From Vicinamibacterales bacterium (lineage in GTDB: Bacteria > Acidobacteriota > Vicinamibacteria > Vicinamibacterales > JAMQPK01), in the NCBI GenBank assembly GCA_023717525.1, contig JAMQPK010000217.1, positions 1 through 49,471 on the forward strand: 49,471 bases of DNA. The letters are read 5' to 3'. Position numbers and translations under genes: made by a program. Within the stretch, counting starts at the first letter, position 1. The number at the start of each line of letters is the position of its first letter. Positions 34,129 through 40,830 of this stretch are shown here, in pieces. The notes below the pieces were generated by a model that saw nothing but the letters and a program-made list of their open reading frames with translations, searched no databases and had not been told where the DNA came from.

Positions 34129-34130
34129 AT

Positions 34131-34198
34131 GTTCTAGGGTTCTAGAGTTCTAGAGTTCCAGAGTTCTAATGTTCCAATCTTCAATCTTCAATTCTCAA
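34131..34198. repeat. Composite spacer repeat: GTTCTAGA units then TTCAATCTTCAAT
   Basis: GTTCTAGG, GTTCTAGA, GTTCTAGA, GTTCCAGA, GTTCTAAT are followed by GTTCCAATCTTCAATCTTC and ATTCTCAATG. The second half matches the right arm of the 174-256 repeat. The 3' codons and TGA stop of the small gene at 34188 lie within it. Confidence 0.7.
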
Positions 34199-34394
34199 TG
34201 TCCAGCTTCAGCTCGTTTGCGCGCTCGTAGAGCGACGACTTGTCGGGATACAGCTCGCGCAGGACGATTTGCTCTTCTCCATGCGTCGACTTGAGAACCT
34301 GAAGTTCCGCTCCAGTGCAGCAGCTGACCATGACGCACGATGTTCTGACCTCGCCGGCAGACACCTCCCACAGCACGTAATGATCGCGATTCAC
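34188..34394 (-). CDS. 68-residue protein coupled to the ATP-grasp ligase (unknown function)
   Basis: GTG 34394 overlaps the TGA of the ATP-grasp gene (GTGA), so translation is probably coupled. The protein opens NRDHYVLWEVSAGEVRTSCV, holds S-C-C-T-G (residues 24-28) and ends with an amphipathic helix, LYPDKSSLYERANELK. The predicted layout is three or four beta strands and a helix; no signal peptide. The last three codons lie within the spacer repeat. It could be a substrate, carrier or regulator of the ligase, or unrelated. No family is recognised with confidence. A longer upstream frame to 34697 exists but lies antiparallel-free within the ligase gene and is a shadow. Confidence 0.6.
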   Translation of the reverse strand: MNRDHYVLWEVSAGEVRTSCVMVSCCTGAELQVLKSTHGEEQIVLRELYPDKSSLYERANELKLDIEN

Positions 34395-35416
34395 TGCGAG
34401 TATCTCGCCATTGCCATGCCGACGATTTCCTCGATGAGCTGGGAGTAGGTGCGGCCGGCCTTTCGCGCCGCCTGGGCGAGCTCGGCACGCGACGCCAGCC
34501 ACGGATTCGGGTTCACTTCGATGACCGTCACGGTCCCGTCCGGCTTCAATCGCATGTCGACGCGGCCGTAGTCCCGCAATTCGAGCGCCTGATAAGCCGC
34601 AATCGCCGTCGTCTGCAGGAGCGTCGTGGTCTCCTCGGAGAGATCGGTCGCGACAATCGATTTCGTGTCGCGGTAGGCCTTGGTGCCCTTCCCCCATTTC
34701 ACCTCGGCCGCCGCGATCCGTGGAGTGCCTTCCGGCAGCTTCGACAGATCGAGTTCGATGACCGGAAGTGCCTCTGGGGTCTCATTGCCGAGGACACCGA
34801 CGTACATCTCTCGCCCATCCACGTACTCTTCGATCAGGATCGGCGAGTTGAACTGCTCGTGGAGCCAGTCGATGCGCTCCATCAACTCCTTGATCGACGA
34901 GACGACCGCGTTGAACTCGATGCCGATCGATCCGTCTTCCCGCATGGGCTTCACGATGACGGGGAAATGCAGCTCGTCGGAAAACGAGAGACGGCCCCGG
35001 AACGACCGCGCGAAGATCGGTGTGTGGATGCCGTGGAACGCGAAGATCTTCTTGGCGACGCTCTTGTCCTGCGCGAGCATCAGGCCGTGGCTGCCGGCAC
35101 CGGTGAATCGCTTGCTGATGAGCTCCAAGTACGCCGCAATATTGAAATCGGCCGTGTCGTTGCCGCCAAACGACTCGCTCAGGTTGAAGATGAGGTCGCA
35201 GTCGAGGCGCGCGAGCGCGTGCAGACTCTTCAACGAGCCGTCGAGCTGGTGCAGCGTCGGCTCGTGATCGAGCTTCGTCAGCGCATCGACCACTTCCTCC
35301 TCGACCTCTTTTTTGTCGAGCGTGCGCATGAGCGGCGCCTTGCCGTTCGAGGCGGACGCGTCCTCTTCCGGCTCCCAGCGGTCGTAGAGCACGACGATTT
35401 TGAGTTTACCTGGCAT
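34391..35416 (-). CDS. ATP-grasp ligase, D-alanine-D-alanine-ligase-like
   Basis: The protein has 341 residues, near the length of Ddl (about 310-360). The nucleotide-binding lysine block is FPVIVKPMREDGSIGIEF, a second block is ILIEEYVDGREMYVGVLG, and the Mg2+ ligands lie in GRVDMRLKPDG and VIEVNPNPWL. The family joins a carboxylate to an amine via acyl phosphate. The N-terminal part (KIVVLYDRWEPEEDAS) differs from true Ddl, and no mur genes are near, so peptidoglycan synthesis is unlikely. Its start overlaps the end of the metallopeptidase gene by 11 bases, and the 68-residue gene follows with a GTGA overlap. Confidence 0.82.
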   Translation of the reverse strand: MPGKLKIVVLYDRWEPEEDASASNGKAPLMRTLDKKEVEEEVVDALTKLDHEPTLHQLDGSLKSLHALARLDCDLIFNLSESFGGNDTADFNIAAYLELISKRFTGAGSHGLMLAQDKSVAKKIFAFHGIHTPIFARSFRGRLSFSDELHFPVIVKPMREDGSIGIEFNAVVSSIKELMERIDWLHEQFNSPILIEEYVDGREMYVGVLGNETPEALPVIELDLSKLPEGTPRIAAAEVKWGKGTKAYRDTKSIVATDLSEETTTLLQTTAIAAYQALELRDYGRVDMRLKPDGTVTVIEVNPNPWLASRAELAQAARKAGRTYSQLIEEIVGMAMARYSQ

Positions 35417-36533
35417 TTACTTGGCTTTCGGCTCTGGGCTCTGGGCTCTGGGCTCTGGGCTTGGTCTTCTGCCCTCTGCCCTCTGCCCTCTGCCCTTTGC
35501 CCTCCTTCTGCCCCTTACCCCTTATCCGATCGCCCGTAAAGTTCCCGCGCTGCAGAAAATTCATCGCGAGCGTCGTCCCGAACGCCGTGAGCTCGACCAG
35601 ATAGCCGGGTTCGCGGCCGATCTCGCCCCACAATTTCAACCGCTCGCAGTTCCGAACAATCGCTTCGACCAGTCCGCGCACCACGGCTCGCCTCACGCCC
35701 GTCCAGTACGTGATCTTGTCGACGAGCTCGCGCCGGTACTTCGTGACGATGTCCACGGCTGGACGTCCCTCGCGCGGCTTGCGCGTGAGAAAAATTTCTG
35801 ACAAGTGCGCGTCCATTGCAAGATCAATCCGCAGGTCGCGTTCTTTTTCGGCGCGCTGATAGAACTCTTCGACCGTCAGGCGCATGTCGTCGACGGTGAT
35901 GTCGACCTCGCCGGTTCGGACGATCGGCTCGACAGCGCCGAACGCCCGCGCCATCCGATCCACATATCGAAGCTTGCGCATCGCCGGCCAGCCTTTGTAT
36001 CGGCGCCTCCACGCACTACCTGGCGTCAACCAGACGGCAAAGGTTTCGGCAAAGTCTTCGTCGGGATGCTTCTGCGCATACCACCCTTCGATGTGGCGCA
36101 CGTACTGGCGGCTGAACGGGACTGGACGGTATTTGTCGCGATACGGCTGCTCGAAGGGGCCGAACGTCGCGCGCCAGTCGGCGCGCGTGTAGAGGCGATA
36201 TGCGTAGTTGAAGACGTGCCCCGCCTCGTGACGCATGTAGCGCATGATCTCGCGGCCGTCTTCGAGATCATCGATGGCGCGCTCGAGCCGCCCGAGCTTG
36301 GGATCGGCGAGATAGAACGGAATACCGAGAATCGGCTGCATGTCGGGACAGCCCCACTCGTCGGTCAGATAGCACACCGGCCGGAATGTGTGGAGGCCGC
36401 GACGCTCGAGCTCCTTGTAGAGCTGCCGCACGTAGGGCTCGACCGGAGAGCCCTCGAGCTTCAGGCCGAGCTCGCGGATGCGCTTGCCGAGCACGCCGCG
36501 CAGTTCCGGGTCGAGCGTCTCAAAAGCGGGCAC
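35406..36533 (-). CDS. Putative zinc metallopeptidase with HEAGH motif
   Basis: The protein has 375 residues from GTG 36533; codons further upstream translate a low-complexity repeat and are excluded. The zinc motif is H102-E-A-G-H106 (MRYMRHEAGHVFNYAYR), and DEDFAETFAVWL downstream supplies a likely third ligand and conserved acidic residues. It resembles the putative zinc-binding metallopeptidase family with RHEAGH. There is no signal peptide. A TATAAT lies only 6 bases before the start, so the mRNA may be leaderless. The last 30 or so residues (GKGQRAEGRGQKTKPRAQ) are encoded by the spacer repeat at 35427-35515. It is first in a three-gene cassette with the ATP-grasp ligase. Confidence 0.8.
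   Translation of the reverse strand: MPAFETLDPELRGVLGKRIRELGLKLEGSPVEPYVRQLYKELERRGLHTFRPVCYLTDEWGCPDMQPILGIPFYLADPKLGRLERAIDDLEDGREIMRYMRHEAGHVFNYAYRLYTRADWRATFGPFEQPYRDKYRPVPFSRQYVRHIEGWYAQKHPDEDFAETFAVWLTPGSAWRRRYKGWPAMRKLRYVDRMARAFGAVEPIVRTGEVDITVDDMRLTVEEFYQRAEKERDLRIDLAMDAHLSEIFLTRKPREGRPAVDIVTKYRRELVDKITYWTGVRRAVVRGLVEAIVRNCERLKLWGEIGREPGYLVELTAFGTTLAMNFLQRGNFTGDRIRGKGQKEGKGQRAEGRGQKTKPRAQSPEPRAESQVNAR
35427..35515. repeat. Degenerate tandem repeat, GGGCTCT and TGCCCTC families
   Basis: Four GGGCTCT units are followed, after GGCTTGGTCT, by four or five TGCCCTC/TGCCCTT units. They lie inside the 3' end of the metallopeptidase frame and just before the ligase start (35416). Confidence 0.7.
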
Positions 36534-38425: not shown

Positions 38426-40099
38426 TCAGTTCGTCGCGTGTTTCCACCCTGGGCCGCGCACAACGCGACCCGGCTTTGCTCCCGTGTGCTCACCGTTTTT
38501 GAGGACTTGCACGCCGTTGACCAACACGTGTTTAACGCCTTTCGAGTACTGATGGGGCGTTTCGTAAGTCGCTACATCACCGATCGTCTCTGGATCGAAC
38601 ACAACGACGTCAGCAAACTGACCCGACGCCAGCAAACCCCGATCTTTGATTCGCAGATTTGTGGCGGGAAGGAAGGTCAACCGATGTATGGCCTCTTCGA
38701 GCGGAATCACCTGTTCATCGCGAACGTAGTTCCCGAGTAAGCGCGCCACGTTGCCATAGGCACGAGGATGAGTGCTTCTAAGGGTGAACGGAGGTTCCGG
38801 AGCCATTGAGTTTCCATCAGACCCGAAACTGACCCACGGTAATCGAATCTGCTTCCGGATATTGTCCTCGGACATCAGGAAATAGACGACCTGAACGCGG
38901 CTTCCATCTTCGACGACGAGGTCCATCGCTGTGTCCTGGATTGACTGGCGACGCAGTCGCGCCACTTCGGCTAGAGTTTTTCCGGTGTAACCTCGTAAGG
39001 CTGCATTCCTGAAACCTACAAGCAGGGTTCCTTCAGCTCCGGCCGATAAGAGCACGTTTTCCCAATCCGACGCCGTCGTCATTTCCTTCCGTAAACGCGT
39101 TCGAATCGACGGCTGTTTTAGCCGACTCGCCCATTCGCGATAACCACCCTCCTGTACCCATGGTGGCATCGCGGCATCGAGCCCTGTCGAGCCGGCGGTG
39201 TAGGTATACATGTTTGCCGTTATCTGGAGGCCATTGGCCCGCGCGGCTTCAATTTTTGCGATCGCGCTTTCGAGCTTGGGCCAGTTATCCCGCCCAGCAG
39301 CCTTGAGATGATAAATCTCAGCACGGATGTTTGCCTGACGGGCGATTTGTGTAACCTCGTCAAGGGCCTCCAGCAGGCGGTCGCCCTCGCTGCGAATATG
39401 AGCTGTATAGATGCCGCCGTATTCAGAAGCAACCTTGGCAAGTTCAACCAACTCATCCGAGTGCGCGTACACGTCGGGGACATAGATGAGCATCGAGGTC
39501 AATCCCAACGCCCCCTCTTCCATCGCATGGCGAACGTGCTGTCGCATCCGATCGAGTTCCGAGGCAGATGGAGCTCTGTTCGCATACCCGATCTCGAGGA
39601 TCCTGACCGTTCCCGCTCCGACGAACGAGGCGACGTTCGGTGATATGCCGCGGGAAACGAGATAATTGAGGTACTCGCCTAATGTGTTCCAGGCGACGTC
39701 AAACTTGAAGTCGGCCTGGCGCTGGCGTTCTTCCTGCTTCATCACCTCATTGAGCGGCCCCATCGACGACTCGCCGAAGACTTCCAGTGTGACTCCCTGT
39801 CGAATGTCGCTCTGCGACCGACCATCTGCGAAGAGGGACCGCTCCGCGTGGCTGAGCATGTTGATGAAACCTGGCGAGACAGCCAAGTCGGTCGCGTCGA
39901 TCTCAATACCCGCTCGCGAGTTGCGCAGATCGCCCACCGCGCCGATGCGATCACCGCTAACGGCAACGTCGGCACGGTGGCCCGGAGCACCACTACCGTC
40001 GTACACGATTCCGTTCCGTATGATGGTGTCGTAGGCTGCCGGAGCGACACACGACCCGGCCAAGAGCGCACAACCAAGGGACAAGAATGCGCGTCGCAT
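38426..40099 (-). CDS. Amidohydrolase-superfamily protein, N-acyl-D-amino-acid deacylase-like
   Basis: The protein has 557 residues with an N-terminal signal, possibly a lipobox (LLAGSC). The fold is clear: IIRNGIVYDGSGAPG, then YTAHIRSEGDRLLEALDE, YHLKAAGRDNWPK, FGSDG and SGQFADVVVFDPETI. The first metal motif, normally HxH after GFID, reads SPGFINMLSHAE and has lost the first His, while GVTLEVFGE replaces the usual Cys-containing segment. The active site is therefore atypical but shared by a subset of relatives. One 60-base sample (39301-39360) has 29 G+C against 40 of 60 in a glnE sample, so it may be acquired. The substrate is unknown. Confidence 0.82.
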   Translation of the reverse strand: MRRAFLSLGCALLAGSCVAPAAYDTIIRNGIVYDGSGAPGHRADVAVSGDRIGAVGDLRNSRAGIEIDATDLAVSPGFINMLSHAERSLFADGRSQSDIRQGVTLEVFGESSMGPLNEVMKQEERQRQADFKFDVAWNTLGEYLNYLVSRGISPNVASFVGAGTVRILEIGYANRAPSASELDRMRQHVRHAMEEGALGLTSMLIYVPDVYAHSDELVELAKVASEYGGIYTAHIRSEGDRLLEALDEVTQIARQANIRAEIYHLKAAGRDNWPKLESAIAKIEAARANGLQITANMYTYTAGSTGLDAAMPPWVQEGGYREWASRLKQPSIRTRLRKEMTTASDWENVLLSAGAEGTLLVGFRNAALRGYTGKTLAEVARLRRQSIQDTAMDLVVEDGSRVQVVYFLMSEDNIRKQIRLPWVSFGSDGNSMAPEPPFTLRSTHPRAYGNVARLLGNYVRDEQVIPLEEAIHRLTFLPATNLRIKDRGLLASGQFADVVVFDPETIGDVATYETPHQYSKGVKHVLVNGVQVLKNGEHTGAKPGRVVRGPGWKHATN

Positions 40100-40217
40100 G
40101 ACGGTGCCTCCAGGTTGCCGCGTTTATAGCTGCCGCCGGAGAAGGAGTCCAGCGCTAATCACAGAGACCGGTCACGGGCCATCTGGTGACCCACCCGTGG
40201 GCAACAACCCCAAATGT

Positions 40218-40249
40218 GATATCCTGTATGAGTATTATAAAAGGATATC
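40218..40249. promoter_or_regulatory. Dyad operator of the toxin-antitoxin pair
   Basis: Perfect 8-base arms GATATCCT (40218-40225) and AGGATATC (40242-40249) flank a 16-base core with a -10-like TATTAT (40233-40238). The right arm overlaps the AAGGA ribosome site before ATG 40251, as expected for autorepression. Confidence 0.6.
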
Positions 40250-40250
40250 T

Positions 40251-40487
40251 ATGGCAGCTATTTCATTGAAGCTTCCCGCAGAGCTCCTGGCAGCCTCGGG
40301 GCGCTGTGCAGACGCCCTGCGACTGACGCGGGCCGCGTACATGCGGCGTGCGCTCGAAGAGATGAACCGCGAGACTCGGGCCCGTCTGCGCGCCCGCCGC
40401 CTCCGCGACGCCTCGCGCAAGGTCCGCGGCGAGAGCATGCGCGTCAACGCGGAGTTCGCCGCGATCGAGCGGGACGGTGATGCGTAG
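40251..40487 (+). CDS. Antitoxin, ribbon-helix-helix-like
   Basis: The protein has 78 residues. The N-terminal strand ISLKLPAELLAASG and helices LRLTRAAYMRRALEEMNRE suit a ribbon-helix-helix DNA-binding domain. The basic C-terminal half (RLRDASRKVRGESMR) would wrap the toxin. The last 8 bases overlap the MazF-type gene, so they are coupled. The start is set by AAGGA 5-6 bases upstream. It binds the dyad just upstream by analogy. Confidence 0.75.
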   Translation: MAAISLKLPAELLAASGRCADALRLTRAAYMRRALEEMNRETRARLRARRLRDASRKVRGESMRVNAEFAAIERDGDA

Positions 40488-40830
40488 GCGGGGCGAGATC
40501 TGGCTTGCGGATCTGAATCCCCGAAGGGGTACGGAGCCCGGAAAGACCCGCCCCGTGTTAATCGTTCAGGCCCAGGCGCTGCTCGACGCCGAGCATCCGT
40601 CGACGCTCGTGATCCCTCTCACAACACAGCTCACCGAGGCCGCCGAGCCCCTTCGGGTTCGCATTCGAGCGGCCGGTCGCCTGAAAAAGGATTCGGACGC
40701 GCTCATCGACCAGATGCGAGCCATCGACAATCGCCGCCTGGTCCAGGGCCCCTTGTCGCGCCTTCAACCCCAACAACTCGATGCGATCGCACACGCGCTG
40801 CTCGAAGTGCTCGATCTGCCGGACGAATAG
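40480..40830 (+). CDS. MazF/PemK-family endoribonuclease toxin
   Basis: The protein has 116 residues. MRRRGEIWLADLNPRRGTEP and the following KTRPVLIVQ are the N-terminal hallmark, and STLVIPLTTQL the central strand of the family. These toxins cleave mRNA at short sequences when the antitoxin is degraded. The start ATG 40480 (or GTG 40477) lies in the antitoxin's last codons. The gene ends 2 bases before the 3' end of the convergent PfkB gene. Confidence 0.88.
   Translation: MRRRGEIWLADLNPRRGTEPGKTRPVLIVQAQALLDAEHPSTLVIPLTTQLTEAAEPLRVRIRAAGRLKKDSDALIDQMRAIDNRRLVQGPLSRLQPQQLDAIAHALLEVLDLPDE

Follow-up and report, generated by a model that had tools for sequence, protein, structure and literature searches.

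A predicted zinc metallopeptidase and a Ddl-fold ATP-grasp ligase are encoded as a conserved two-gene unit in Acidobacteriota

On the minus strand of a contig from a Vicinamibacterales bacterium (JAMQPK010000217.1; the 49,471 nucleotides analysed are hereafter called the window), three consecutive open reading frames encode, in this order, a peptidase, an ATP-grasp ligase and a 68-residue protein. A preliminary description had proposed the three genes as a candidate peptide-making, tagging or modifying system. This raised the question of which of these genes belong together, and of what their products might do.

Gene layout and the peptidase reading frame

The peptidase gene (35406..36533), whose GTG start agrees with the starts of its relatives, precedes the ligase gene (34391..35416), which is followed by the 68-codon gene (34188..34394), also with a GTG start. 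Pfam matches for the first two and homologues of the third show the genes to be real, and the GTGA overlap between the ligase stop and the small-gene start is present in the sequence. The 11 bases placed "between" the peptidase and the ligase turned out to be shared by both genes and not a gap, the peptidase stop lying within the first ligase codons. The final 40 or so peptidase codons (about 35409-35525) derive from a heptamer repeat of the TCTGGGC type, into which the frame reads through. Repeats of the form (TCTGGGC)n, and related CTCTGCC repeats, occupy 35420..35525, between the peptidase core and the ligase start. In an alignment, the relatives' peptidases stop about 40 codons sooner, at the equivalent of 'TTLAMNFLTRGRFET', and their peptidase-to-ligase spacing is typically 0-50 nt, with a few larger gaps. 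The overlap thus exists because the repeat has extended the peptidase frame, and it is a local accident. A 19-mer pattern of the heptamer repeat was found at 19 places in the genome, and a reversed-pattern control at none. Repeats of the TCTGGGC and GTTCTAG types are scattered genome-wide (C22, C49, C98, C109 and others), lying in the window at 35420-35525 and 34129-34190, and often flank genes, the true Ddl among them.

The peptidase matched Pfam Peptidase_Mx (PF15887) over residues 96-174 only, at 1.4e-7 and 31.7 bits against a cutoff of 27, so that its HExxH zincin core scored above the family's gathering score. The protein carries the motifs HEAGH (102-106) and ED-x-AETFA (159-166), in which H102, E103, H106, E159, D160 and E163 were invariant in a 32-row alignment. 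Its structural model (pLDDT 82) gave weak matches to PDB folds, of the zincin type, none of them confident (best E 0.37). These features point to a zinc metallopeptidase of putative activity. The aligned N-termini begin directly at the conserved domain, with no signal peptide evident by inspection, from which we infer a cytosolic location.

No protein of the locus matched a defence system in PADLOC, and a defence-system identity was therefore dropped. Elsewhere in the window, a pair of small plus-strand ORFs (40098-40830) resembles, by eye, a MazE/MazF-type toxin-antitoxin module.

The ligase and the Ddl family

The ligase matched Pfam Dala_Dala_lig_C (PF07478) at 2.7e-32, and its model (pLDDT 89) matched DdlA/DdlB structures (E 2.4e-25, about 25% identity). 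Its invariant residues K118, K156, E196, E203, K240, R285, D287, E300 and N302 correspond to the ATP-grasp/Ddl catalytic set; the two lysines, the glutamate and the Asp/Glu-x-Asn element, together with the fold, place it in the ATP-grasp carboxylate-amine ligase superfamily. Fold and ATP/Mg-binding residues are thus common to Ddl and this protein, and its best fold and family matches are Ddl/Van, which speaks for a housekeeping or resistance-type D-Ala-D-Ala/D-Lac ligase. To that reading we nevertheless give almost no credence, and it was rejected on domains, cutoffs, the substrate loop and the presence of a separate Ddl. A Pfam search found no Dala_Dala_lig_N domain (PF01820) in the ligase, which also lacks the E-x-x-V-S motif of Ddl, and the protein fell far short of every NCBIfam Ddl/Van cutoff (129.9 bits vs 243). 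The genome's true Ddl lies elsewhere, at C109, and is the sole PF01820 match in the genome (6e-36). A housekeeping Ddl, which the preliminary description had named as an identity that could overturn its proposal, was in this way excluded.

The loop comparison pointed in the same direction. Where Ddl has NT-x-PG-x-T-x-x-S (NTIPGFTTIS in the genome's own enzyme), the ligase has NPNPWLASRA, so that the D-Ala-site residues are replaced; these are presumably Ser281 and Gly276 in E. coli DdlB numbering. NPNP was invariant in the 33 aligned ligase rows; within the window's group it is followed by W or Y, and elsewhere mostly by Q, E or D. The ligase keeps its ATP/Mg and catalytic residues and is an active-looking enzyme, probably with substrates other than those of Ddl.

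Conservation of the pair and of the small gene

The association of peptidase and ligase was examined in 199 evenly sampled Acidobacteriota genomes, with thresholds of E 1e-40 for the ligase and 1e-30 for the peptidase. The ligase was present in 56 of the 199, the peptidase in 49 and both in 47 (hypergeometric P 7e-34, a statistic that ignores kinship), and the two peptidase-only genomes bear divergent ligases of the same kind (1.7e-37 and 9.2e-36). Adjacent pairs, with the peptidase first and on the same strand, numbered 33 in 29 genomes. In G072, G083 and G138 the two genes are convergent neighbours, showing that the link survives rearrangement. A larger public collection gave a similar picture, the peptidase lying immediately upstream in 37 of the 47 close ligase loci for which upstream sequence was available, and the pair was also found in Myxococcota and Eisenbacteria MAGs. 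The peptidase-adjacent ligases formed one clade (support 100/98), except for one divergent row. The automatic adjacency tags of this tree under-count pairs, because over-extended ORFs hid real ones (e.g. L013-L015), and the counts used here are those of the 47 close ligase loci and of the 199 genomes. Protein distances of peptidase and ligase were correlated across 19 loci with a Mantel r of 0.97, a value expected for any co-inherited pair. About ten close relatives keep the ligase with no adjacent peptidase, so the ligase is able to function unaccompanied; copies in G295 and L036 are truncated, and in G028 the only peptidase is a paralogue located elsewhere. These data bear out the claimed association of the two genes: they are a conserved unit, functionally linked by genome evidence. 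Among the hosts of the pair are soil and groundwater acidobacteria.

Inspection of 13 type-A and 12 type-B/C neighbourhoods revealed no constant third gene beside the pair. A third partner was accordingly rejected: outside the closest clade, neighbours of the CarD-like, siroheme synthase and sulfite reductase kinds do not recur. Judged by eye, siroheme synthase and a sulfite-reductase-like gene precede the pair in the flanks of L034, L041 and L033, and a CarD-like regulator lies downstream of the ligase in some closest-clade relatives; neither arrangement carries over into other clades. The literature searched on PF15887 with ATP-grasp, in which coverage of ATP-grasp surveys was incomplete, did not describe the pair.

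The small gene behaved differently. It is a real gene, because homologues of about 60 residues with 47-52% identity, aligning from the GTG start, share the motif C-x4-CC-x-G-x-E-L-Q, followed in the family by ExP-K and ERA-x-x-L. Searches of Pfam, NCBIfam and PADLOC gave no family for the protein, and its hits in PHROGs were sub-significant only. When 162 genomes of the order were searched with the single sequence, four homologues stood out clearly and a few others matched more weakly. The reading in which all three genes make up a peptide-making or tagging system, with the 68-residue Cys-Cys protein as its substrate or tag, can draw on the conserved cysteines of this genuine protein and on the GTGA translational coupling in the window. 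The neighbourhood comparison speaks against it. In a profile search of all ORFs of the fetched loci, no copy of the small gene followed any of the other close ligase homologues, about 57 in number (58 of the 62 close-ligase rows, the window's own included, had 500 nt or more of sequence downstream). Among 297 genomes of the phylum, a profile search at E 0.001 found the small protein in the window's genome only. Conversely, no peptidase or ligase was found near the small-protein homologues in the fetched flanks of up to about 5 kb. The three-component cassette was therefore rejected by the test that its own proposers had set, the absence of the small gene from the majority of genomes in which both other genes are retained, and we consider it very improbable. 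The "small conserved-looking protein" of the preliminary description is conserved as a rare family, but not together with peptidase and ligase.

Since the small gene follows no other close ligase homologue checked, its adjacency and GTGA coupling are specific to the window's lineage, and we judge it to be a lineage-specific passenger and not a system component. It would represent a separate orphan family, inserted or rearranged downstream of the ligase in this lineage and translationally coupled to it without being part of the system. Dropping it spares effort on a three-part model. Orphan members of the family were seen at unrelated loci (L125 5008-5196, L126 5067-5315, L127 5000-5218 and L128 4482-4703), those of L126 and L127 lying near a sensor kinase and a response regulator.

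Possible functions of the pair

Three known arrangements resemble the acidobacterial pair in outline. In the RimK/RimB (RimABK) system of Pseudomonas, an ATP-grasp glutamate ligase is paired with a cognate protease (PMC11957791, PMC12239564) that strips off what the ligase has added and also stimulates that enzyme (PMC11957791). The likeness is that an ATP-grasp ligase and a cytosolic peptidase are encoded together. However, the acidobacterial ligase has the Ddl fold (PF07478) and is not of the RimK family, its score of 34.7 bits lying below that family's cutoff of 143.4; the peptidase is an HExxH zincin and not a retropepsin, and there is no RimA. The pair is thus not a RimK-family ligase with a retropepsin. 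Graspetide loci of ATP-grasp branches 7 and 8 also contain peptidases and no precursor gene (PMC8939145), as is the case here, but their enzymes are graspetide-type ATP-grasps, whereas the acidobacterial ligase is Ddl-type and has no leader-peptide machinery. Nor was a precursor gene co-conserved with the ligase, the small gene being absent at the other ligase loci checked. The Anbu operon, finally, combines an ATP-grasp and a peptidase-fold protein in a proposed tagging system (PMC6376114). It differs in its Ntn-hydrolase, alpha-E and transglutaminase components, none of which is present in the acidobacterial pair. The Anbu-operon ATP-grasp is circularly permuted.

We give about an even chance to the reading, drawn from the pairing, domain content and conserved residues, that the pair comprises a cytosolic zincin peptidase and a Ddl-fold amino-acid or peptide ligase acting on the same pool. 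The ligase would turn an amino-acid or peptide carboxylate into an acyl phosphate and join it to an amine, and the peptidase would trim or remove amide-linked residues from the same peptide pool. With one enzyme joining and the other removing, the pair could control how much there is of a short peptide, or of a residue attached to a protein. Such a pair would operate in the manner of RimK/RimB, although neither protein belongs to the corresponding family. A narrower version would make it a reversible amino-acid-addition system in Acidobacteriota and their neighbours, in which the ligase adds residues at the terminus of a protein or peptide and the zincin takes them off again. The pair would then have arrived at the RimK/RimB principle independently; we regard this version as improbable.

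A serious rival, which we rate as rather unlikely, is that no protein is targeted and that the pair serves to make and recycle a small non-ribosomal dipeptide or an unusual amino-acid conjugate. Its standing comes from sister ligase groups that sit with lysine 2,3-aminomutase (KamA) and GNAT genes (L145, L146, L149, L150), and from a distant plasmid relative found with sbnA and ornithine cyclodeaminase, genes of diaminopropionate biosynthesis, and with KamA. Given these contexts, ligases of the wider group could plausibly use non-proteinogenic amino acids. However, no constant amino-acid-modifying gene adjoins the peptidase-linked ligases in the flanks inspected, and their loci are not biosynthetic clusters.

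The sister-ligase loci are themselves of note. Tandem sister ligases, a GNAT acetyltransferase and KamA form a four-gene module at L145 6990-10702, L146 9889-12621, L149 6576-10340 and L150 7897-11612, which looks like a beta-lysine conjugate pathway; L148 7640-10153 is similar, without the aminomutase. On the Thioflavicoccus plasmid (L164 2551-8032), the distant ligase follows genes for diaminobutyrate transaminase, SbnA and an ornithine cyclodeaminase-like protein, with KamA convergent. This is likely a locus for a diaminopropionate-containing peptide.

To return to the peptidase-ligase pair itself, about a quarter of the sampled Acidobacteriota genomes bear the two genes, which constitute a small two-protein system open to testing. 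The ligase is easily mis-annotated as a D-Ala-D-Ala ligase, and its recognition as a separate, peptidase-linked family corrects this annotation.
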